A stretch of 64,000 nt of DNA from Nocardia nova SH22a (GTDB taxonomy: Bacteria > Actinomycetota > Actinomycetes > Mycobacteriales > Mycobacteriaceae): the NCBI RefSeq assembly GCF_000523235.1, contig NZ_CP006850.1, forward strand, positions 6,820,001 through 6,884,000. Reading direction: 5' to 3'. Positions 6,625 through 22,834 of the stretch are shown here, piece after piece. How positions within the stretch are numbered: the first letter of the stretch is position 1; every line of letters starts with the position of its first letter. A program made the position numbers and the translations under genes. The notes beneath the pieces are model-generated. The model was not told the DNA's origin. It was given only the letters and a program-made list of their open reading frames with translations, and searched no databases.

Positions 6625-7083
6625 TTATCGCCGCCGACGTCTCGCCGCCGCCGAACGGTTCGACCTCGGCGGGCGGGGGCGGGAGAAAACCGCCGGAACA
6701 CCCGCGGTGCCGATACGGTCGAGTTCCTCGGCCAGCCGTGCCGTCTCGTCGTACCAGTCGCGCAGTTCGCCGACCGTCGGCGCGGGCTCGGAATCGAGAT
6801 GGTGCCCCGACCGCGACAGCACCGCCCACAATCCGGCCACCCGCCCGGCGAGTTCGGGTCCGGCGCAGGTCTCCAGTGCCAGCAGTTGCGCGCGCATACT
6901 GCAGCGGGCCAGCGGCGGGGAGATCCGCGCCCACAGCCCGTCCACCGCCTGTTCCAACGCGATCCGCAGGATCCAGACCGTGGCCCGCGACCACAACCCG
7001 CCCGCATCGGTCACCGTGCCGTCGAGCAGTTCCGCGGCCGCGTCCAGACGCTCGGTGACCGTCGGCCTCACGGATCGAGCCAT
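6625..7083 (-). CDS. Conserved hypothetical partner of the SMC-like ATPase
   Basis: 152-residue, mostly helical protein without a recognisable motif. It opens MARSVRPTVTERLDAAAELL and ends in an Arg-rich tail (RPRPPRSNRSAAARRRRR) that could contact nucleic acid. The start codon lies inside the 3' end of the upstream ATPase gene (16-bp overlap), which argues for translational coupling and a joint function. The Walker-type ATPase plus small helical partner resembles ATPase/accessory-subunit pairs in DNA-processing systems, but that is inference. I do not recognise the family. Confidence 0.7.
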   Translation of the reverse strand: MARSVRPTVTERLDAAAELLDGTVTDAGGLWSRATVWILRIALEQAVDGLWARISPPLARCSMRAQLLALETCAGPELAGRVAGLWAVLSRSGHHLDSEPAPTVGELRDWYDETARLAEELDRIGTAGVPAVFSRPRPPRSNRSAAARRRRR

Positions 7084-9470
7084 GTCACGAGCCGCCTGGT
7101 GTCGTCGATCAGCTCGGCAGGTGCGCGGCGGATGCGGATGTGGGCGCCGGCGGCGGCGTCGCGGACCACCGCACGGGCCCACGGCGCCTCGCGGTCGAGC
7201 AGATCGTTGAGATCGTCGACCCGGTCCGGCACGCCGAAGATGGCCAGCGACACCGTCTCCCAGGTGGTCCGCGCCCGATCGACGCGGGCCTGCACCTCGC
7301 GATGATCGATTCCGGCGGCCAGTAGTTCGCGGCGGGCGCGGGCCAGCGCGGCGGCCTCGACGGCGGATCGACAGCAGGTGATCACGAGTTCGGTCGCGAT
7401 CGCGCGCGGCAACTGGCGGGTGCGCTGCAGCGCGCGGGCATCGGCCAGATAGCGCCGGACCGGATCCTCGATCGCGCGGACCTCCACCCGGGAACGCTCG
7501 CGGCGCTGGACCTCGAGAACCGTTGCGTCCAGGCGCAATCGGCGTACCGCCTCGGACAGCCGCTCGTCGTGGGTGAACACCACGACCTGGCGGCCGCTGC
7601 GGGCGACGGCGGCCAGCACCCTGGCGAGACCGTCGACCTTGGCCGGATCCATCGCCTGCACCGGATCGTCGATCATGACGAATCCGAACGGGCTCTCGGC
7701 CACCGTGGCGCGGGGCAGGAACAGCGCCAGGCCCAGCGCGTGCAGTTCCCCTTGGCTCATGACGCCCAGTGCGGTGCCGTCGGTGTCGTCGACGGTGACG
7801 TCGAGCAGCACCTTGCGGCTGGCTCCGGCGTTGCCCTGCAGGCGAATCGCGCCCAGATCCACATTGCTGCGCTGGCGCAACCCGCCCCAGATGCGGCGGG
7901 CGTGGTCGGCCAGCGGGGCCATCCGCTCGTCCCGCAATCCGGCGGCCGCAGACTTCAGCCATTCCTCGGCGCGGCGGACCGTCCGCAGTTCCGGATCGGC
8001 TGCGGCGACCAGTCGCGCCTCGTGCAACCAGGCCGCGATCCGCGGCACCAGCGGAGTCCACACCGCATCGATCCGGTCGAGTTCCTTGTGTACCGCGCGC
8101 TGCAACGCCTCCAGCCGGACCGCGAGGTCGGCGTGTGCCGTGCGCAGGCGCGCCGCGGCGGCCGGTTCGAGTCCGGCCAGTGCGGACCATCCGGTCCAGG
8201 CGCGGTGCACGTCGGCCGGATCGATATTCGGTGCGGCCGCCATCGAATCCAGTTCCGCCGGAACGGGTTCGATCAGGGCGCGGGCGGCGGCGACCGCCTC
8301 GTCCAGTTCGGCGCGCGCGCCGGTGTACGCGACCGCGCGCTGTTCGGCCTCGGCGATCCGGGCCGTGGCATCGGCGCGCCAGGCCGCGTCCAGGGCGCCG
8401 TGACCGCAGACCGGGCAGGGACAGCCCGCCGCCGCGTCCGCGTGCTCGACCGCGCGCCGCAGCAGATCCACCACGCGCAGCCCGGATTCCGGATCCCCCG
8501 CCGCGGAGTCGGCCAGCCGAGCGGCGGCCTGTTCGACTGCGGTGGCGGCGGCATCGACCTGCGCGGCGGGGGGAAGTTCCAGCCGGACGATGGCCTGCAA
8601 TGCCGCCACCCCGCCCGGATCGTGGCGCACACCGGCCAGTTCGCGCGCGATCTCCGCCAGATCCGGTGCGGCGGCGCGCAACAGGGCGGCGACCCGTTCG
8701 GCGCGATCGTCGGCGATGGTGGTGAGTTCCGCGAGCAGGGCGTGGCGCGCGTCCCGGGACTGCTTGGCCGCGCGTTCCAATTCGATTCGGCGCGTGCGGG
8801 TTCGGTCGAGGGCGGCGCTGACGTCGTCGAGGCCGAGCAACCGGTGCAGCGCGTCGAACAGATCGCTCGGCCGTCCGTCGGCGACCGCGCCGAGTTCGCT
8901 GTAGGACAGGAAGGGGCGGTAGAGCTCCATGGCGGATTCCCAGTCGCCGACCCGGAATTCCCCGTCGGCGCGGCCCTCGCGCCATCTGGTCCAGGCGCCG
9001 CCGGGCAATTCGTCGGTGTCCGACCACTCCCGCTGGATCGAGTAGTCGCCGGTCTCCGCCGAGACCACATCGACGGTGATGCGAGTGGTGCTGTCGCAGT
9101 GCATGTTCCGCCAGCCCGCGCGCCAGACGGCCGATCGGCCCTCCCAGCGCCGGTTCACTCCCGTCAGCGCCACTTCGACGGCTTCGGCGAAACTCGACTT
9201 ACCCGAACCGTTGCGGCCCACCACGAGCGTCAGTCCCGGGCCCGGCGCGATCGGCAGCACCGCCTCCGGGCCGATACCGCGAAATCCGCGAACGTGGACC
9301 GCGCGCAGGAACAGCCCCGACTGCGGCGTCGCACCACCGGATTCCGGCGGTTCCCCCAGGGCGGCGAGTACGGTGTGGGCGACATCCGGGCCGATCGAGG
9401 AATCCGCGCGCAACCGTGCCGAAACCAGATCGCGCAGGCGCGGTGTGGATTCCCCCTCCCCTTGCCCCAC
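7068..9470 (-). CDS. Rad50/SMC-like AAA ATPase with zinc-hook motif
   Basis: 800-residue ABC-type ATPase. Walker A GRNGSGKS is at 85-92, after FLRAVHVRGFRGI typical of RecF/Rad50-like proteins. The signature-like MSQGELHALGLAL is at 571-583, Walker B FVMIDDPVQAMD at 597-608 and an H-loop VVVFTHDE at 629-636. The middle is rich in Ala, Leu, Glu and Arg, compatible with coiled coil, and carries CPCPVCG at 350-356, a CxxC zinc-hook-like apex. The C-terminal ~150 residues are extra. The GTG start at 9470 has AGGAGGGG just upstream (9473-9480). It probably acts in DNA repair or DNA surveillance. It is divergent from the SWIM/MoxR/VWA set. Confidence 0.85.
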   Translation of the reverse strand: MGQGEGESTPRLRDLVSARLRADSSIGPDVAHTVLAALGEPPESGGATPQSGLFLRAVHVRGFRGIGPEAVLPIAPGPGLTLVVGRNGSGKSSFAEAVEVALTGVNRRWEGRSAVWRAGWRNMHCDSTTRITVDVVSAETGDYSIQREWSDTDELPGGAWTRWREGRADGEFRVGDWESAMELYRPFLSYSELGAVADGRPSDLFDALHRLLGLDDVSAALDRTRTRRIELERAAKQSRDARHALLAELTTIADDRAERVAALLRAAAPDLAEIARELAGVRHDPGGVAALQAIVRLELPPAAQVDAAATAVEQAAARLADSAAGDPESGLRVVDLLRRAVEHADAAAGCPCPVCGHGALDAAWRADATARIAEAEQRAVAYTGARAELDEAVAAARALIEPVPAELDSMAAAPNIDPADVHRAWTGWSALAGLEPAAAARLRTAHADLAVRLEALQRAVHKELDRIDAVWTPLVPRIAAWLHEARLVAAADPELRTVRRAEEWLKSAAAGLRDERMAPLADHARRIWGGLRQRSNVDLGAIRLQGNAGASRKVLLDVTVDDTDGTALGVMSQGELHALGLALFLPRATVAESPFGFVMIDDPVQAMDPAKVDGLARVLAAVARSGRQVVVFTHDERLSEAVRRLRLDATVLEVQRRERSRVEVRAIEDPVRRYLADARALQRTRQLPRAIATELVITCCRSAVEAAALARARRELLAAGIDHREVQARVDRARTTWETVSLAIFGVPDRVDDLNDLLDREAPWARAVVRDAAAGAHIRIRRAPAELIDDTRRLVTWLDP

Positions 9471-9841
9471 GGCCCCTCCTGGCTTCACACGACACGTCGG
9501 GGCGAGGCTACCGGAGAACCGGCCCGGGCGGGGCGCATGGCCATCGGCCGGGGTGAACCGTCCGATGGCCACCCCTCGGCCGTCCCGGCCGGGCAGTTCC
9601 ACGGTTTTCACCCACGAGGGGTGGCTCGGTCCAGCCGAACAGGTCAGAATGCCAGATCCAGCGATCTTGCACAAGTTGACGAGCGATCTCAATCGCGTTC
9701 CGGGACAGCGGGATTCATATCCGCTACCGGCTGGCGAATCCGATTCACCGGTCACCGGGGCGGTGTGCGCGGACGCGGCGCGCGATCGGTGTCGGTGGGG
9801 TCGGGTACAAATCCGGAGGTAACGAACGAACGGGGGAACAC
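9471..9841. other. 371-bp divergent intergenic region with nested inverted repeats
   Basis: Separates the SMC-like gene (minus) from the SWIM gene (plus). TGGCCATCGG (9538-9547) pairs perfectly with CCGATGGCCA (9562-9571). GCCACCCCTCG (9568-9578) pairs perfectly with CGAGGGGTGGC (9615-9625). The two hairpins share bases 9568-9571 and so cannot both form in full. On the minus strand TTGTGC and CATTCT, spaced 17 bp (about 9649-9677), could be a weak promoter placing both hairpins in the leader of the SMC-like gene. No convincing gene is seen here. Confidence 0.45.
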
Positions 9842-12688
9842 GTGAGCAGATCTCCGGCGGCGGTGCCCACTGTCACCGCCGACAATGTCCTGGCCCTGGC
9901 ACCCGACGCCGCCGTGCTCGAGGCGGCGCGGGCGCTGGCCGGAGCGTGGCGGCAGACCGGCCGTCACGGCACCGCGCTGTGGGGTCTGTGCGCGGGTGGC
10001 GGAGCCGATCCGTATCGGACCGTCGTCGATCTGTCCGGACCGGCGTATCACTGTTCCTGCCCCAGCCGGAAATTTCCCTGCAAACATGCGCTGTCGCTAC
10101 TGCTGCTCCGATCACGGGACGAGGTCGCCGAGGCCGATGCGCCGGTGGGGTTCGCGGCCGAATGGCTCGCGGCGCGGCCGCGCGGCACGAGTACCCACGG
10201 AACCGGGCAGTCGACCCTGGAGCGGCGGCGTGCCCGGGTCGATGCCGGGCTGCGGGATCTCGAGACCTGGCTCGCGGATCAGATCCGTACCGGTCTGGCA
10301 CAGGCCGATCATTCGGCATCGGCGCTGGAGGCGGTGGCCGCGCGGATGGTCGACGCGCAGGCGCCCGGCGTCGCCGCCGCGCTGCGCCAACTCCCACGTC
10401 GGCTGCTCGGCAACGACGAGTGGCCCGCCGTTCTGCTCAGCGAGTACGCCCGGCTGCATCTGCTCGTCGGCGCCCATCGACGGCTCGGCGAACTGCGTCC
10501 GGAGCAGGCCGCGGGTGTGCGCGCCCACATCGGATATCCGGTCAGGTCCGACGATGTCCGCACGGGCACGCCCGCGGTCCGTGACCACTGGATGGTGCTC
10601 GGCGTCCGGATCACCGAGGAGGAGCGGGTCTTCAGCCGCCGCGCCCTGTTGCGCGGGCGCTACACCCGGCGATGGGCGCAGGTGATCGAGCACAATTTCG
10701 GCAGTGCGAGTTTTGCCGGGGAACGTCCGGTCCCCGGCACCATGGCCGAGAGCGACCTGCACTTCTATCCGGCCGCGGTGCCGTTGCGCGCGGTCCGGGG
10801 CGCGTATCACGAACTCGCGCAACCGTTCACGACGCTGGCCTGCGACTCCGCGACGATCGCCGATCAGCTCGCGGATCATGCCCGTGCCCTGGGGATCGAT
10901 CCGTGGTTGCGCAGCCATCCGATGGTGCTGACCGCGGTGAGCCCCACCTTCGGCGACGGCGGCTGGTATCTGGCAGAAGCGGACGGGACCGCGTTGCCGC
11001 TCGCCGCGAGCGTGGAGGTGCCGTGGCGGCTGATCGGCCTGTCCGGAGGACATCCGCTGACGGTCGTCGGTGAGTGGACCGCGGCCGGGCTGATACCGCT
11101 CGCGGCGCTCGTGAACGGCGAGATGGTCGATGTGGAACCCGGAACATCGCTCGGCACACCGGCTCCGGGCACGGCCGTGTCGGCGGCCGCCGAGGCGATC
11201 GTGCCGACGGCACTGCTCGGCACCGCCCGCCGTCCTCTGGATCCGGCCCGGCTGGCGCACACGGTCGCCACGGCACTGCGACCTGCCGATCCGGAACACA
11301 CCCTGCTCGACGCGGCGATGCTGCAGGAGCTCTACCACCGTGGTGGCGCGGTACCCGGGCACGCCCAACCGCTCACTCCGGCCGAGTCGGACGATCGGCT
11401 GCTGCTGCCCGCCGCCGCGGCCCGTCGCCTGCGCGATCTGGTCGCCGGGAACTCGCCGATGCTCGCGGAGTGGTTCGCGGCCGCACTGCCCCGCGATCCA
11501 CGCGCACCCGACGCGCTGTGCGCCGAATTGCTGGAGGCCGCCAGAACCCAGCCCGCCCTGCGTGATTCGCTGCTGCGGCTGACCGGCGCGCGGGGCCGCT
11601 GGCTGGCGGCGCTGCATCCGCGTTGGCGTCCGATGCTGCGCGCGGGTGACGACGATCCCCGGGTGTGGACGCACGGGCGTCCGGCGGAACGGCGGAACTG
11701 GCTGGCGGCCGTGCGCGGCCGCGACGCCGCGGCCGCCCGGGCGGCGCTGGCCGAGACCTGGAGCCGCGAACCCGCGCGCGGACGCGCCGAACTGCTCGCC
11801 GTGCTGGCCAACGGCCCAGAGCTCGCCGACGAGGCACTGCTCGAGATGGGCCTCGACGACACCCGCGCCGAGGTGCGCCGCGTCGCCGCCGATCTTCTCG
11901 CCCGGCTGCCGGATTCGGCGTACTGCGCCCGGATGCGCGAGCGGGCGCGGCGCTGGGTGCGCGTCCGGTCCGGGGCCCTGCTGCCCGAACTACCGGAGGA
12001 GCTGGGCGAATCCGCTCGGCGCGACGGGCTCACCGACCGGCTGGATCCGGTGGCCTATCGTCGCGACGGCGGCGTCGATATCGACGCCGAACGGCTCCGC
12101 CGCCTGATGGCCGCCACCCCGCTGGACCATTGGACCTCGCTGTGTGGTTCGGCCGCGGCAGCCACCGCCCTGCACCTGTCCGACGACATCCTCGGGCCGG
12201 TGTGCGCGGGCTGGTCCGAAGCCGCACTCGCCCAACGCGATTCATCCTGGGCGGCGCACTTGTTCGAGGTGCTGACCACCACCCCGACCCTCGGCGCGGA
12301 TCCGCGGCTGCGCCAGGAACTGTTCGGATTGCTGCCGCTCGACCACCGCGTCCGCTATCTGTGCGGCCTGGACTCCAGCTGGCTGGCCGAAGTGGAACTG
12401 CTGCTGCCAGCGCTGGCGCATCCCTGGCCGCAACCGGTGGCCGATCATGTGGTCCGGCTGCTGCTCGACCGCGCCCAGCTGGCCCAGGCGCGCCCCGGCG
12501 CGGCCGGGCTGTCGCCCGCGTCCTACCGCACCCTGCTGCGCAGCGCCACGATCCACTTCCCGGTCCCCGCCTCGCGGGCGGTCGCCACCGCGGCCCGGCT
12601 GTGCGGAGATCCGCACTGGCACAGCGCTTTCGATCAACTCACCGACGGACTGACCCAACGCCTCCGGATGCTCGAGGAGCTCGCATGA
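9842..12688 (+). CDS. SWIM zinc-finger protein fused to a DUF5691-like domain
   Basis: 948-residue protein. The SWIM zinc finger CxCx6CxH is complete: Cys71, Cys73, Cys80, His82 in YHCSCPSRKFPCKH. SWIM domains bind DNA or proteins. Residues to about 440 belong to the SWIM-protein part. The second half, from about EAIVPTALLGTARRPLDP to the end, resembles DUF5691, with repeated helical segments (LADEALLEMGLDDTRAEVRR). In related actinobacteria these two parts are, as I recall, usually separate neighbours, so this looks like a fusion. The start is GTG 9842 after GGGGGAACAC. It overlaps the MoxR gene by ATGA, a sign of coupled translation. Role in the set: a likely recognition or scaffold component (inference). 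Confidence 0.85.
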   Translation: MSRSPAAVPTVTADNVLALAPDAAVLEAARALAGAWRQTGRHGTALWGLCAGGGADPYRTVVDLSGPAYHCSCPSRKFPCKHALSLLLLRSRDEVAEADAPVGFAAEWLAARPRGTSTHGTGQSTLERRRARVDAGLRDLETWLADQIRTGLAQADHSASALEAVAARMVDAQAPGVAAALRQLPRRLLGNDEWPAVLLSEYARLHLLVGAHRRLGELRPEQAAGVRAHIGYPVRSDDVRTGTPAVRDHWMVLGVRITEEERVFSRRALLRGRYTRRWAQVIEHNFGSASFAGERPVPGTMAESDLHFYPAAVPLRAVRGAYHELAQPFTTLACDSATIADQLADHARALGIDPWLRSHPMVLTAVSPTFGDGGWYLAEADGTALPLAASVEVPWRLIGLSGGHPLTVVGEWTAAGLIPLAALVNGEMVDVEPGTSLGTPAPGTAVSAAAEAIVPTALLGTARRPLDPARLAHTVATALRPADPEHTLLDAAMLQELYHRGGAVPGHAQPLTPAESDDRLLLPAAAARRLRDLVAGNSPMLAEWFAAALPRDPRAPDALCAELLEAARTQPALRDSLLRLTGARGRWLAALHPRWRPMLRAGDDDPRVWTHGRPAERRNWLAAVRGRDAAAARAALAETWSREPARGRAELLAVLANGPELADEALLEMGLDDTRAEVRRVAADLLARLPDSAYCARMRERARRWVRVRSGALLPELPEELGESARRDGLTDRLDPVAYRRDGGVDIDAERLRRLMAATPLDHWTSLCGSAAAATALHLSDDILGPVCAGWSEAALAQRDSSWAAHLFEVLTTTPTLGADPRLRQELFGLLPLDHRVRYLCGLDSSWLAEVELLLPALAHPWPQPVADHVVRLLLDRAQLAQARPGAAGLSPASYRTLLRSATIHFPVPASRAVATAARLCGDPHWHSAFDQLTDGLTQRLRMLEELA

Positions 12689-13788
12689 CCACCATCGACA
12701 CCCCGCCCGCCGATCTGCTGCGCCCGCACGCCGAACAGGTGTACGCCGATGAACTGGCCGCGCTGGCGGCGGCCGACGACCGCCCGCGCCCGCCGTCGTG
12801 GCGGCTGTCGCCCTGGGCGGTGGTGACCTATCTGCTCGGCGGCGCCCTTTCCGACGGCACCGTCATCACACCCAAGTACGTCGGCCCGCGCAGGCTCATG
12901 GAGGTCGCGGTCGCCACCCTGGCCACCGATCGCGCACTGCTGCTGCTCGGCGTTCCGGGCACCGCCAAAACCTGGGTGTCGGAACATCTTTCCGCCGCGA
13001 TCAGCGGATCGTCCACCCTGCTGATCCAGGGCACCTCCGGCACCGCCGAGGAGGCCGTCCGATACGGCTGGAACTACGCCCGGCTGCTCGCCGAGGGCCC
13101 CACCGACGGCGCCCTGGTGCCCTCCCCGGTCATGACGGCGATGCGCACCGGCGCGATCGCCCGGGTCGAGGAGCTCACCCGCATCCCGTCCGATGTCCAG
13201 GACGCGCTCATCACCGTGCTGTCGGAGAAGACGCTGCCGGTGCCCGAACTCGGTATCGAGGTGCAGGCGGCCAAGGGCTTCAACGTCATCGCCACCGCCA
13301 ATGATCGCGATCGCGGCGTCAACGAACTGTCCTCGGCGCTGCGCCGCCGGTTCAACACCGTGGTGCTGCCGCTGCCCGCGGCCGAGGAGGACGAGGTGTC
13401 GATCGTGACCCGGCGCGTCGAACAACTCGGCGCCACACTGCAATTGCCGCCGATCCCCGCCGCGGCCGAGGAGATCCGGCGCGTGGTGCGGGTGTTCCGG
13501 GAACTGCGGTCGGGCATCACCGCCGACGGGCGCACCAAGCTCAAATCCCCCTCCGGCACCCTGTCGACCGCCGAGGCGATCTCGGTCGTCACCAACGGCA
13601 TCGCGCTCGCGGCGCATTTCGGTGACGGCGTCCTGCGCGCCGGTGACGTCGCGGGCGCGGTCCTGGGCGCCGTGATCAAGGACCCGGTGGCCGACGGCGT
13701 GGTGTGGACCGAATACCTCGAGGCCGTCGTGCGCGAGCGCCCCGACTGGTCCGACTTCTACCGTGCGTGCCGTGAGGTGCACGGATGA
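12685..13788 (+). CDS. MoxR-type AAA+ ATPase
   Basis: 367-residue AAA+ ATPase of the MoxR group, remodelling ATPases that act with VWA proteins. Walker A GVPGTAKT is at 89-96, the Walker B region IARVEEL at 158-164, sensor-1 ATAND at 203-207 and an Arg-finger region SSALRRRFN at 216-224. Walker B carries VEEL where a classical site reads DE, as seen in many MoxR relatives. The ATG is embedded in the stop of the SWIM gene and the 3' end overlaps the DUF5682 gene by ATGA, so all three are made from one message. It probably uses ATP to load or remodel a partner together with the VWA protein (family-based inference). Confidence 0.93.
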   Translation: MTTIDTPPADLLRPHAEQVYADELAALAAADDRPRPPSWRLSPWAVVTYLLGGALSDGTVITPKYVGPRRLMEVAVATLATDRALLLLGVPGTAKTWVSEHLSAAISGSSTLLIQGTSGTAEEAVRYGWNYARLLAEGPTDGALVPSPVMTAMRTGAIARVEELTRIPSDVQDALITVLSEKTLPVPELGIEVQAAKGFNVIATANDRDRGVNELSSALRRRFNTVVLPLPAAEEDEVSIVTRRVEQLGATLQLPPIPAAAEEIRRVVRVFRELRSGITADGRTKLKSPSGTLSTAEAISVVTNGIALAAHFGDGVLRAGDVAGAVLGAVIKDPVADGVVWTEYLEAVVRERPDWSDFYRACREVHG

Positions 13789-16007
13789 GTGAATCCGCCC
13801 TCGATGAACCGCGCACCCGCGTCTTCGGAATCCGCCACCACGGACCGGGTTCGGCCCGCTCGCTGAACTGGGCACTGCGGCGCTTCGAGCCCGACGCCAT
13901 CCTGATCGAGGGCCCCGCCGACGCCGATCCCCTGACCGGGTTCGTGGCCGCCGACGGGATGGCGCCGCCGGTCGCGCTGCTCGCCTACACTCCGAACGAT
14001 CCGTCCCGGGCCGCGTTCTGGCCGTTCGCGGTCTTCTCGCCGGAATGGCAGGCACTGCGGTACGCGGCCGAAAAGCAGGTGCCCGTGCACTTCTGCGATC
14101 TGCCCGCCGCCAGCACCCTCGCCCGCGAGGACGATTCGCCCGGCGACCGCGGCGATCCCCTGGCCTCGCTGGCCGCCGCCGGTGGATACGACGATCCGGA
14201 ACGCTGGTGGGACGCCGTCGTCGAATCCACCGCCGATCCGGAAGGCGACGGCAGCGAGATCTTCGACGCCATCACCGAGGCGATGACGGAACTTCGTGCC
14301 GCGGAGAGCGATTCGGTGGACGCGCACACATTGCGCCGCGAGGCGTACATGCGGCAGACCATGCGCAAGGCCGTCAAGGGCGGCGCCCGCAGGCTCGCGG
14401 TGGTGTGCGGCGCGTTCCACGCACCCGCGCTGGCGGGCGGCCTCGGCCCGGCCGCACCGGACGCCCGGCTCCTCAAGGGCCTGCCCAAGGTGAAGACCAC
14501 CCTCACCTGGGTGCCGTGGACACATTCCCGGCTGGCCGGAGCATCGGGTTACGGCGCGGGCATCGGCTCGCCGGGCTGGTACCACCACCTGTTCACCCAG
14601 CCGCGGGATCCGGTCGCGCGCTGGCTGACCCGGGTCGCCGGAGCATTGCGCGCCCGCGATCTGCCGGTGTCCAGTGCGCACATCATCGAATCCGTGCGGC
14701 TGGCCGACACCCTCGCCGCGCTGCGCGGTCGGCCCGGGCCGGGACTGTCCGAGGTCACCGATGCCACCCGGGCCGTGTTGTGCGACGGCGACGAGGCCGT
14801 GCTGCGCTACATCAGCGACGAACTGGTCGTGGGCGAGGCGCTGGGATCGGTACCCGACGACATGCCCATGGTCCCGCTCGACGCCGATCTGCGAGCCCGG
14901 GCACGGACCCTGCGCCTGCCGCAGCAGGCGGCGGTCAGGCAGCTGGATCTGGATCTGCGCACGGAGCGGGACGTGGCTCGTTCTCATCTGCTGCACCGGC
15001 TGCGGCTGCTCGGAATCGACTGGGGGAAACCGGTTTCCGGTGATGTGCGCAATACCGGCACCTTCCGGGAGTCCTGGTCGCTGCGCTGGGAGCCCACCCT
15101 GCCGGTCGCGGTGATCGAGGCTTCACGCTGGGGTACCACCGTCCGCGGTGCGGCCGAGGCGAAGATCCTCGACCGGGTGCGGTCCGCGGACGCCTCGGTC
15201 GGCGATATCGGCGCGGCACTGGAGACGGCACTGCTGGCCGATCTGGGCGGGGCGGTCGACGGACTCGTCGCCCGGCTCGAGGAGGCCGCCGCCCTCGATC
15301 ACGATGTCACCCATCTGCTCGCCGCACTGCCGGGCCTGATCCGCACCCTGCGCTACGGCGATGTGCGCAGTACCGATGTCGACGCACTGGGCCGGGTGGC
15401 CGACGGGCTGCTGATCCGCATCTGCGCCGGGCTGCCAGGCGCCGTCACCGGAGTCGACACCGACGCCGCGACCCGGCTGCGCGGCCTGATCGACAGCACG
15501 CACGTCGCGATCGCCACCCGCGACGATCCGCACGCCACCGAGATGTGGACGACGGCCCTGCACCGGCTCGCCGACCGGGACGATGTGCACGGCGCGCTGG
15601 CCGGCCGCGCGGTGCGGCTGCTGTGCGATGCGGGAATCATCGCCGACGAGGAGTCCGCGCGGCGGTTGTCGGCGGCGCTGTCGATCGGCCACGATCCGGC
15701 GGACAAGGCCGCCTGGATCGACGGCTTCCTCGGCGGGCGCGGGCTGCTGCTGGTCCACGATCGAGACCTGCTGCGGCGCATCGACTCCTGGCTGCGCGGG
15801 CTCGACGAGGACCGGTTCGTCGCCACCCTGCCGCTGCTGCGCCGAACCTTCGGCGCCTTCGAGGCCGGTGAACGCCAGGCCATCGGCCGGGCGGTCCGCG
15901 AGGGCACACCGGTCCACGTCGGCCCCCGCGTCCACACCGGTGTGGACGCCGAGCGCGGCCTGCTCGCCCTGCGCGCGGCCACCGAAATACTGGCGGCCAC
16001 ACGATGA
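13785..16007 (+). CDS. DUF5682 family protein with TraB/EreA-like motifs
   Basis: 740-residue protein of unknown activity that accompanies MoxR/VWA genes in many actinobacteria. The N-terminal ~220 residues show an ordered motif set: GIRHHGPGSA (15-24), LIEGP (40-44), REAYMRQTMRKA (185-196) and VVCGAFHAP (207-215). His, Glu, Arg and final His occur in the same order as in the TraB/ChaN/erythromycin-esterase-like fold. I infer a metal-dependent hydrolase or protease domain. The remaining ~500 residues are Leu/Ala/Arg-rich and probably helical, with no motif I know. It overlaps the MoxR gene by ATGA. The VWA gene follows after 157 bp. Confidence 0.85.
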   Translation: MSESALDEPRTRVFGIRHHGPGSARSLNWALRRFEPDAILIEGPADADPLTGFVAADGMAPPVALLAYTPNDPSRAAFWPFAVFSPEWQALRYAAEKQVPVHFCDLPAASTLAREDDSPGDRGDPLASLAAAGGYDDPERWWDAVVESTADPEGDGSEIFDAITEAMTELRAAESDSVDAHTLRREAYMRQTMRKAVKGGARRLAVVCGAFHAPALAGGLGPAAPDARLLKGLPKVKTTLTWVPWTHSRLAGASGYGAGIGSPGWYHHLFTQPRDPVARWLTRVAGALRARDLPVSSAHIIESVRLADTLAALRGRPGPGLSEVTDATRAVLCDGDEAVLRYISDELVVGEALGSVPDDMPMVPLDADLRARARTLRLPQQAAVRQLDLDLRTERDVARSHLLHRLRLLGIDWGKPVSGDVRNTGTFRESWSLRWEPTLPVAVIEASRWGTTVRGAAEAKILDRVRSADASVGDIGAALETALLADLGGAVDGLVARLEEAAALDHDVTHLLAALPGLIRTLRYGDVRSTDVDALGRVADGLLIRICAGLPGAVTGVDTDAATRLRGLIDSTHVAIATRDDPHATEMWTTALHRLADRDDVHGALAGRAVRLLCDAGIIADEESARRLSAALSIGHDPADKAAWIDGFLGGRGLLLVHDRDLLRRIDSWLRGLDEDRFVATLPLLRRTFGAFEAGERQAIGRAVREGTPVHVGPRVHTGVDAERGLLALRAATEILAATR

Positions 16008-16164
16008 TCCGGTCATCGAACAGCCGCCGACCGGCGAACACACGACCGGCCCTCGGTGCGACCGGGAGTGCCGCAGAACACAAGAGGCACCGTGAGCGAC
16101 GATCGCGTCGCGGCTCGCGATGCCGACCGGGTGCGGGTGGCCCGCATGAATACAGGAGCAGGCG

Positions 16165-17328
16165 ATGACGACATCGGACGACGAGCAGGCCCGGCGCTGG
16201 CGGCTGGTACTCGGCGCACCCGCCGAATCCGGTGTGGGCGGGCTGTCTTCGGCCACCGACACCGCGATGGATCACGCGCTGTCGGCGCTCTACAACGACG
16301 ACGAGCAGACCCCCTCCGCGAAACGTGCGGCGGGCCTGAGCGGCTCCGCGCCGAAAGTGGCGCGGTGGCTGGGCGATATCCGCACGTACTTCCCGTCGAC
16401 CGTGGTGGAGGTGATGCAGCGCGATGCCGTCGATCGGCTGCAACTGGCCCAGCTGCTGCTCGAACCGGAACTGCTCGAGGCCGTCGAGCCCGATGTCCAG
16501 CTCGTCGGCACCCTGCTCACCCTGAACCGGGTGATGCCCGAAACCACCCGCGCCACAGCACGAGTCGTGATCGAGAAGGTGGTCGGCGATATCGAACGGC
16601 GGCTGGCCGCGCGCACCGTCGCCGCGGTGTCCGGTGCGATCGATCGCGCCGCCCGGGTGACCCGGCCGCGCCTGCGCGATATCGACTGGGATCGCACCAT
16701 CCGCCGCAATCTCGCCCACTACCTGCCCGAACATCGCACCGTGGTTCCCGAGCGGCTGGTGGGCTACGGACGCCGGGCACAGGCGGTACACCGCGAGGTG
16801 GTGCTGGCGGTCGACCAATCCGGTTCCATGGCCGCCAGCGTGGTCTACGCCTCGGTGTTCGGCGCGGTGCTGGCATCGATCCGGTCGCTGCGGACCTCGC
16901 TGGTGGTATTCGACACCGCCGTGGTGGATCTCACGGAGCACCTGTCGGATCCGGTGGATGTGCTCTTCGGCACACAACTCGGCGGCGGGACCGATATCAA
17001 CCGGGCCGTCGCCTACTGCGCGCAGTTGCTCACCCGGCCCGCGGATTCGCTGTTCATCCTGATCTCCGACCTGTACGAAGGCGGTGTCCGCGACGAGATG
17101 GTGCGCCGGATCGCCGCGATGAAGGAGGCGGGCGTCCAGGTCCTGGTGCTGCTGGCCCTGTCCGACGAGGGCGCCCCGGCCTACGACCACGACAATGCCG
17201 CGTCCCTGTCGGCCCTCGGCGTTCCCGCCTTCGCCTGCACTCCGGACCGCTTTCCGGATCTGCTGTCGATCGCACTCGACCGTGGCGATGTGCACGGCTG
17301 GGCTCGGGCCCGGGCGAACCGGCGCTGA
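16165..17328 (+). CDS. VWA domain protein (MIDAS intact) of the MoxR set
   Basis: 387-residue protein with a helical N-terminal half and a von Willebrand A domain from about residue 208. The metal-ion-dependent adhesion site is complete: DQSGS at 217-221, Thr276 in GGGTD and Asp302 in ILISDLYEGG. It belongs to the CoxE/VWA-containing group that pairs with MoxR ATPases. It presumably binds the target through the bound metal while MoxR supplies force. The ATG has AGGAG upstream. The 157-bp gap after the DUF5682 gene holds no clear promoter, so I place it in the same operon. It has no signal peptide and is probably cytosolic. Confidence 0.92.
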   Translation: MTTSDDEQARRWRLVLGAPAESGVGGLSSATDTAMDHALSALYNDDEQTPSAKRAAGLSGSAPKVARWLGDIRTYFPSTVVEVMQRDAVDRLQLAQLLLEPELLEAVEPDVQLVGTLLTLNRVMPETTRATARVVIEKVVGDIERRLAARTVAAVSGAIDRAARVTRPRLRDIDWDRTIRRNLAHYLPEHRTVVPERLVGYGRRAQAVHREVVLAVDQSGSMAASVVYASVFGAVLASIRSLRTSLVVFDTAVVDLTEHLSDPVDVLFGTQLGGGTDINRAVAYCAQLLTRPADSLFILISDLYEGGVRDEMVRRIAAMKEAGVQVLVLLALSDEGAPAYDHDNAASLSALGVPAFACTPDRFPDLLSIALDRGDVHGWARARANRR

Positions 17329-22737: not shown

Positions 22738-22828
22738 GCCCCGCTCCCAATTCCCGTCCCGGATCCGGAGAAACCATAGCAGTACGCCGACCGGGCGTCC
22801 GGCGCCGCAACTTGTCGGCGCCGACGGC

Positions 22829-22834
22829 TACCCT
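22829..22834 (+). promoter_or_regulatory. -10 box for leaderless endonuclease IV gene
   Basis: TACCCT ends 6 bp before ATG 22841, with no Shine-Dalgarno between them. This fits a leaderless transcript and helps choose the start over the longer open frame beginning at 22736. Confidence 0.45.

Follow-up and report, generated by a model that had tools for sequence, protein, structure and literature searches.

A set of four genes in Nocardia nova SH22a was analyzed within a stretch of 64,000 nucleotides (positions 6,820,001 to 6,884,000 of contig NZ_CP006850.1, hereafter the window). It is tentatively proposed to encode a YehL-type cytosolic machine that is induced by DNA damage, in which a MoxR ATPase and a von Willebrand factor type A (VWA) protein would spend ATP on driving or remodelling a TraB-like enzyme, the DUF5682 protein; as a whole, this proposal is given slightly less than an even chance. 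Regarding its parts, the Nocardia set is likely to be under DNA-damage control, judged by the likeness of its promoter motif, and the N-terminal part of DUF5682 is probably a TraB/Tiki-type enzyme domain whose activity is predicted only. The four open reading frames (ORFs), all on the forward strand, make up an operon-like unit spanning 9842-17328 (Table 1), in which ATGA overlaps at 12685 and 13785 join the first three genes, and a gap of 157 nt separates the stop of the DUF5682 gene from the start of the VWA_CoxE gene. This confirms the arrangement given in an earlier note on this DNA, with three genes overlapping by ATGA and the fourth close behind. The same note had left a role in protein quality control or defence open and had missed the DNA-damage-type promoter; the reading is here shifted towards the DNA-damage response.

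Promoter motif upstream of the set

In mycobacteria, most damage-inducible genes are reported to be under a promoter of the form tTGTCRgtg - 8 nt - TannnT (PMC5656591), and PafBC is described as the activator of this RecA-independent promoter (PMC6789036). A site of this type, the only one in the 600 nt scanned around the start of the window operon, ends 30 nt upstream of its first start codon. The upstream regions of related loci were analyzed with the spacer fixed at 8 and up to 2 mismatches allowed in the 520 nt before the unit. This covered 36 Nocardia loci out of 39 and 32 further loci (28 from actinobacteria and 4 from other phyla); the remaining loci were truncated too close to the unit. 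The motif was present before the unit in 35 of the 36 Nocardia loci, the exception being L026, compared with 3.75% of 1440 windows drawn at random from these loci, none of the 36 on the opposite strand, and 5 of 204 upstream regions of other Nocardia ORFs. Among the 25 distinct Nocardia sites, positions 2-5 and 7-9 and the TA were invariant, and most spacer positions varied.

The motif was also within the limit in 13 of the 28 actinobacterial loci outside Nocardia, distributed among Prescottella (3/3), Nocardiopsis (5/6, two of them perfect), Actinomadura (2/3), Nonomuraea (1/1), Actinoallomurus (1/1) and Propionibacteriaceae (1/2). Moreover, a second, distant set of the same genome (see below) showed a perfect motif at L004:16097-16119, with 265 nt between the motif and the called start of the first gene in that set. 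When nine loci (L004 and L085-L092) were scanned on either strand with at most 1 mismatch and read against gene maps from a rough gene caller, 7 sites were found in 6 loci: those in L085, L086, L087, L088 and L004 precede the first genes of sets, and L090 carries two, one on each side of its divergent SWIM and MoxR halves. The sole site with up to 1 mismatch in the window itself was located at 22812-22834, away from the operon.

Neighbouring genes and other damage regulons provided further indications. DUF4132 genes, one of them with a WGR domain, were found beside MoxR-DUF5682-VWA in two loci of Actinomycetota (L088, 1578-7639; L089, 10884-12215), like yehF/yehI in Escherichia coli, where a LexA-like site matching 13 of 20 positions (L003:447-466) lies just before the start of yehF; molR is listed among LexA-regulated genes, and Deinococcus WGR/DUF4132 genes are reported to rise upon loss of DdrO (PMC8533742). 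Taken side by side, these neighbours, the yehF site with molR, and the DdrO-dependent genes fit the damage reading. Among the proteins listed as lowered in the pafBC mutant (PMC5656591) are MoxR1 and MoxR2 together with a von Willebrand factor protein, which may be of another kind than the YehL-type set; the words SWIM and VWA are absent from the main text of that paper.

Several observations weigh against damage control of the set. The window site itself differs from the consensus at 2 positions, and none of the Nocardia sites closes TAnnnT with a T, A or C standing there instead; the -10 part therefore departs from the mycobacterial form. The sites of 15 of the 28 actinobacterial loci outside Nocardia were beyond the 2-mismatch limit, including all those of Rhodococcus (0/7, each with 3 mismatches at -117 to -119), Antrihabitans (0/2), and Gordonia, Cellulomonas and Catellatospora (0/1 each), and no site with up to 1 mismatch was found on either strand of L089, L091 or L092. 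No actinobacterial SOS box within 3 mismatches was detected before the window operon, and the E. coli LexA-like site lies approximately 8 kb from yehL, with none before yehL itself. The mycobacterial-type motif was present in none of the 4 loci of other phyla. When the consensus sites of those phyla were searched instead, the candidates were at most weak: a radiation/desiccation-like site with 2 mismatches on a Deinococcus plasmid (L093:5735-5751, 36 nt upstream of the SWIM gene and equalled in 4 of 300 control windows), a site with 3 mismatches in Hymenobacter (5/300) and one with 1 mismatch in Leptolyngbya (9/300). In Rhizobium and Methylosinus, 239 and 230 of 300 control windows, respectively, were as good as the damage-type site, and no such site was found upstream of the Thiofilum set.

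The DUF5682 protein and its partners

Residues 5-267 of DUF5682 were collinear with a TraB/PrgY profile (hhalign P 1.8e-9; controls negative), and it is on this alignment that the protein probably holds a TraB/Tiki-type enzyme domain. The match includes the motifs GxxH, E, R..xYM and GxxH, the first corresponding to G15/H18, the Glu to E42 and the second GxxH to G209/H212. In an alignment of 41 DUF5682 sequences, including E. coli YehM and the paralogue, H18, H19, E42, R185, E186, M189, C208, G209 and H212 were invariant, and G15 was kept in at least 90%; motif III aligns with ERDxYM and motif IV with VVGAxH of TraB/PrgY. The profiles were drawn from 28 TraB-family loci, of which 16 went into a GumN profile and 5 into the TraB/PrgY profile, one (L133) had no partner and six were left out; L097 was not used, and the Ere profile comprised 12 of 20 Ere loci. 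A simple hydropathy scan of DUF5682 revealed no membrane span (highest 19-residue mean 1.37), and sequence searches of the PDB, with the single sequence and with the profile, gave nothing up to E 10.

The assignment to this superfamily is opposed by several results: the TraB/PrgY profile contains 5 sequences, neither the GumN profile (E 0.029) nor the Ere profile (0.23) reached significance against DUF5682, Pfam TraB matched 1 of the 41 members, at 0.13, and Foldseek returned no match at E <= 0.001 for the model of DUF5682 (pLDDT 80.3) or for that of SWIM-DUF5691. Furthermore, other Tiki enzymes are described as having a 2His/2Glu set whose first Glu stands two residues before the first His (PMC6254334), and DUF5682 is without this Glu, I16 or R17 standing in its place. 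For this reason DUF5682 is not classed with the Ere-type enzymes (Tiki/Ere 2His/2Glu).

The window ATPase was 40% identical to E. coli YehL (BLASTP, E 2e-74, 364 alignment columns) and was closest to it among the MoxR proteins compared; against RavA the value was E 0.29 only, and a sequence search of the PDB matched NorQ weakly (E 9.7e-8). The earlier note had described the Walker A, sensor, MIDAS and SWIM motifs as intact, and they could all be read from the translation. Walker A (GVPGTAKT) and sensor-1 (ATAN) are accompanied by a Walker B region, RVEE, with Glu in place of the canonical Asp, like RFEE in YehL. The Walker A, sensor-1 and Arg-rich patterns were conserved in 75 of 75 MoxR homologues and a Glu/Asp-Glu pattern at Walker B in 63 of 75. 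The VWA protein was 38% identical to YehP (BLASTP, E 3e-77; 4e-77 in another comparison) and matched ViaA at E 1.8e-4 only; its metal ion-dependent adhesion site (MIDAS) reads DQSGS / GGGTD / ISD, and the full pattern, as a strict regular expression, was present in 66 of 77 homologues.

Two fusions link DUF5682 to the VWA protein: a single protein of 1266 aa in L085 (Pfam 84-1011 and 1040-1261) and one frame of 1341 aa in G104 holding both matches, which suggests, on gene structure, a contact between the two. Together with the TraB/PrgY-like domain, these fusions lend support to the earlier proposal that DUF5682 is the effector. Directly before the MoxR of two DUF5682-VWA fusion sets, mutually related frames of approximately 2000 aa were observed (L085 1572-7460 and L087 1315-7698); the L085 frame, the one scanned, gave no Pfam match.

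As read from its sequence, the first gene of the set is a union of two modules, SWIM and DUF5691, a correction to the earlier reading. Where both modules are present, one reading frame encodes them in all 36 Nocardia loci, and separate frames do so in all 32 loci of other genera; a separate SWIM-DUF5691 fusion of 1009 aa was found in Hymenobacter. The CxC...CxH pattern was conserved in 62 of 63 SWIM proteins covering the site. The AlphaFold2 model of the window protein (pLDDT 91.9) resembled in fold one chain of the ZSWIM8-CUL3-AGO2 complex, Foldseek giving nothing at the threshold above, and a PDB sequence search resulted in no match up to E 10. This resemblance is the sole hint at the target-recognition role that the earlier note had supposed for SWIM, and some sets occur without DUF5691.

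Distribution and gene order

A scan of contigs with the DUF5682 alignment detected at least 390 confirmed relatives, and the best 80 loci, leaning to close kin, were analyzed. The order SWIM, DUF5691, MoxR, DUF5682, VWA was kept in 67 of the 80. Among the 13 loci without one or more modules, L013, L023, L025, L052, L066, L068, L069 and L074 end near a gap; L064 is cut upstream, yet it is also without VWA downstream; and four loci truly or possibly deviate, namely L049 and L057, in both of which DUF5691 was not detected, and L075 and L076. The full set was found in Rhodococcus, Gordonia, Cellulomonas, Nocardiopsis, Actinomadura, the cyanobacterium Leptolyngbya and the gammaproteobacterium Thiofilum, and an identical gene order on plasmids of Deinococcus, Hymenobacter, Rhizobium and Methylosinus (the VWA gene of the latter being unannotated). 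Small extra genes annotated as hypothetical proteins were observed between MoxR and DUF5682 on the Deinococcus (L093:9759-9995) and Hymenobacter (L094:8374-8985) plasmids. Altogether, the set spans E. coli (yehLMPQ), Actinomycetota, Deinococcota, Bacteroidota, Cyanobacteria, and Alpha- and Gammaproteobacteria, so a system confined to actinobacteria was rejected: the earlier description of a recurrent MoxR/VWA set without an assigned role stands, and its actinobacterial scope does not.

In an even draw of 149 Actinomycetota genomes, DUF5682 was present in 10 (7 of 117 genera), in 15 copies, each with a MoxR match (E no higher than 2.5e-69) at most 398 nt away and a VWA_CoxE match at most 1389 nt away; the carrying genomes had 5 weaker MoxR matches that were not at any copy. 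With this co-occurrence and the order kept in the 67 loci, an accident of one genome was rejected, and the ATP-driven MoxR/VWA gene set proposed from the window alone, for which a survey of neighbourhoods had been suggested, gains support. DUF5691 was above cut-off in 9 of the 149 genomes, all of them DUF5682 carriers, at 1.2-3.3 kb from the copy, and its matches were sub-threshold in 2 more. Because 6 of the 15 copies are without DUF5691, MoxR, DUF5682 and VWA are, by gene content, the core of the set. In three genomes of one class (G123, G104 and G023), DUF5691 lies on the strand opposite to MoxR, approximately 2 kb away; the operon is therefore split into divergent halves there. Pairwise distances among SWIM, MoxR, DUF5682 and VWA were correlated at r 0.87-0.94, and those with DUF5691 at r 0.71-0.84 (55 of the 80 loci in both cases), as expected of genes that travel together; host relatedness alone could give the same.

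Within Nocardia, a main-type DUF5682 (E below 1e-170) was present in 58 of 59 genomes, as was DUF5691; the remaining genome, G221, has neither and carries a second-type DUF5682 only, and none of the listed matches to the two families contained stop codons. By reading of the match list, the second type occurs in 22 of the 59 genomes. In the genome of the window it belongs to the second, distant set (L004 8843-16119, reverse strand; G000:C1 ~2069843-2077119), composed of an unknown protein of 550 aa, VWA_CoxE, MoxR and a DUF5682 protein of 927 aa. Mastigocoleus is a case against a joint machine: its DUF5682 has no partners within 10 kb (L075), and DUF5682 and a MoxR 72% identical to that of the window lie on different contigs (G155, C119 and C117).

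Only three clusters of flanking genes spanned at least 3 genera, and no operon genes beyond them were conserved across genera. Next to the window unit, a divergent gene (7068-9755) encodes a protein of 895 aa with an SMC/AAA_21 ATPase domain, whose PADLOC matches look like generic ATPase similarity; relatives of it were near the operon in 31 of the 39 Nocardia loci and in no other genus among the 80 loci.

Table 1. Features of the gene set in the window, with positions counted from the first nucleotide of the window.
Feature	Position	Strand	Basis
SWIM-DUF5691 fusion protein, 948 aa	9842..12688	+	Pfam SWIM 1.3e-5, DUF5691 3e-121
SWIM zinc motif CSCPSRKFPCKH (C71, C73, C80, H82)	10052..10087	+	translation
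DUF5691 module, predicted helical solenoid	11198..12682	+	
MoxR AAA+ ATPase, YehL subfamily, 367 aa	12685..13788	+	Pfam AAA_5 1.1e-37
Walker A GVPGTAKT	12949..12972	+	translation
DUF5682 protein, 740 aa; N-terminal TraB/PrgY-like domain (probable) and C-terminal helical part	13785..16007	+	Pfam 3.2e-262
TraB/PrgY-like domain (probable), residues 5-267 (default settings: 7-246)	13797..14585	+	hhalign
DUF5682 motif I GIRHH (G15, H18, H19)	13827..13841	+	alignment of 41 sequences
DUF5682 motif II LIEGPAD (E42)	13902..13922	+	alignment of 41 sequences
DUF5682 motif III RREAYM (R185, E186, M189)	14334..14351	+	alignment of 41 sequences
DUF5682 motif IV CGAFHA (C208, G209, H212)	14406..14423	+	alignment of 41 sequences
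VWA_CoxE protein, 387 aa, YehP homologue	16165..17328	+	Pfam 2e-53
MIDAS DQSGS	16813..16827	+	translation
RecA-independent (PafBC)-like promoter motif GTGTCGGTG, 8 nt, TACAAA	9789..9811	+	2 mismatches to tTGTCRgtg-N8-TAnnnT

Proposed mechanism, rival explanations and known systems

MoxR-VWA pairs generally remodel a client with ATP. In the machine proposed here, DNA damage would switch the unit on, as the promoter motif suggests; a MoxR hexamer would be coupled to the VWA protein via its MIDAS site, by analogy with NorQ/NorD, and ATP hydrolysis would pull on or open a complex containing DUF5682. The latter would then hydrolyse a peptide or ester bond in a target, as might be expected from Tiki and erythromycin esterase, with SWIM and the DUF5691 solenoid holding or presenting that target, perhaps proteins on damaged DNA. 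A more specific version, in which a TraB/Tiki-type protease would be gated by the YehL-type motor through a VWA bridge and clear proteins (e.g. DNA-protein crosslinks) from damaged DNA with the help of a SWIM/solenoid adaptor, is considered rather unlikely. In eukaryotes, a segregase ATPase and a protease share the clearing of proteins from damaged DNA, and the proposed bacterial version would be built from unrelated parts.

MoxR-VWA pairs of known job mature metalloenzymes, which counts against a damage-induced remodelling machine. The corresponding alternative, maturation of a metallo-cofactor, supposes that DUF5682 is itself the client, which MoxR and VWA would load with metal or haem or strip of it, with SWIM/DUF5691 as scaffold. 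The motor would then work for the enzyme and have no target apart from it, and the set may still be damage-induced in that case. The invariant His, Glu and His of DUF5682 could bind metal, and ChaN, of the same superfamily, binds haem. The VWA protein belongs to the CoxE family (2e-53), and insertion of metals by MoxR-VWA pairs has been reported (PMC13036017, PMC3893208). However, no other metalloenzyme gene was conserved beside the operon, the window MoxR is of the YehL subfamily rather than NorQ or CoxD, and a DNA-damage promoter is not predicted by metal maturation. This explanation, although unlikely, is given somewhat more weight than the crosslink-clearing version above. Slightly less probable than that version is a general stress or housekeeping remodelling, in which the motor would maintain some complex and the promoter likeness, local to Nocardia and some relatives, would have no functional meaning. 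The presence of the DUF5682 of the set in nearly all Nocardia genomes suggests a core role, and no damage-type site better than chance was found upstream of the Rhizobium, Methylosinus and Thiofilum sets. Against it stands the occurrence of the motif before sets of differing build and gene order (L004, L086, L088 and L090), from which it follows that the motif was kept or gained several times.

An anti-phage or conflict system, that is, a relative of the MoxR-vWA ternary systems with DUF5682 as a toxic effector released upon infection or DNA damage, is very unlikely. Ternary systems with peptidase effectors fused to vWA have been described (PMC7159879, PMC12839542) and the DUF5682-VWA fusions look alike; moreover, a relative was found in 36 of 72,556 plasmid records, some of several megabases. 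Nevertheless, a main-type DUF5682 in 58 of 59 genomes and flanks kept within Nocardia (the SMC-like neighbour in 31 of 39 loci) speak against such a system, as does an effector that is constant instead of varied. In PADLOC, SWIM, DUF5682 and VWA had no match at E <= 1, and MoxR matched only IetA (E 0.016 and 0.032); relatives were present in none of 47 viral-contig candidates and in 1 of 50,697 phage records. The defence role left open in the earlier note is not supported. A classical VMAP ternary system was rejected, since no VMAP domain was among the Pfam matches of the four window proteins and the bpMoxR match of the ATPase (20.7 bits) was under the cut-off of 27.

MoxR-VWA machines are widespread, and for the YehL branch, present in E. 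coli K-12, no stated role was found. Judged by the open-access literature, in which no mention of DUF5682, DUF5691 or 'yehLMPQ' was found and no relevant title on MoxR with TraB/Tiki/EreA was among the matches listed, the TraB/PrgY-like domain and the damage-type promoter are new here, the promoter link not having been searched for. The promoter motif tells when to look, after DNA damage, and the TraB-like reading tells what to look for, singling out H18/H19, E42 and H212 and the same motifs in YehM. If the proposed damage-induced machine were true, an operon of several phyla without an assigned role would take its place in how bacteria respond to DNA damage, and an ATP-driven cytosolic branch would be added to the Tiki/TraB superfamily.

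Compared with known systems, the set shares a MoxR ATPase with a VWA partner with both NorQ/NorD and RavA/ViaA, but no reductase gene is conserved beside it, and its matches to RavA (E 0.29) and ViaA (E 1.8e-4) are marginal; a client metalloenzyme, as would be expected beside NorQD/CoxDE pairs, is not conserved in the flanks of the window-type set across genera. The MoxR-vWA ternary conflict systems, as described by Kaur et al. 2020 (PMC7159879), also combine MoxR, vWA and a further protein, with effector-vWA fusions in some loci; the window-type set differs in its constant DUF5682 in place of varied effectors and in a bpMoxR match below cut-off. With the TraB/PrgY family, DUF5682 shares the collinear profile match and differs in having no membrane span and a long helical C-terminal part. 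The likeness to the PafBC/RecA-NDp regulon of mycobacteria consists of tTGTCRgtg-N8-TAnnnT before the window unit. YehL is one of seven MoxR subfamilies, without a stated role in the accessible text of PMC3893208, which describes no five-module unit, TraB-like part or promoter for it. The closest known counterpart is found in E. coli K-12 MG1655, where yehL, yehM, yehP and yehQ (b2119-b2122) are adjacent. There, yehQ stands last and has two SWIM motifs, YehQ gave no significant alignment with the window SWIM protein (BLASTP), and the set has DUF4132/WGR neighbours and no DUF5691 match; MoxR (40%), DUF5682 (31%, YehM, E 4e-41) and VWA (38%) are nonetheless recognizably alike in sequence, and a SWIM gene accompanies them in both.

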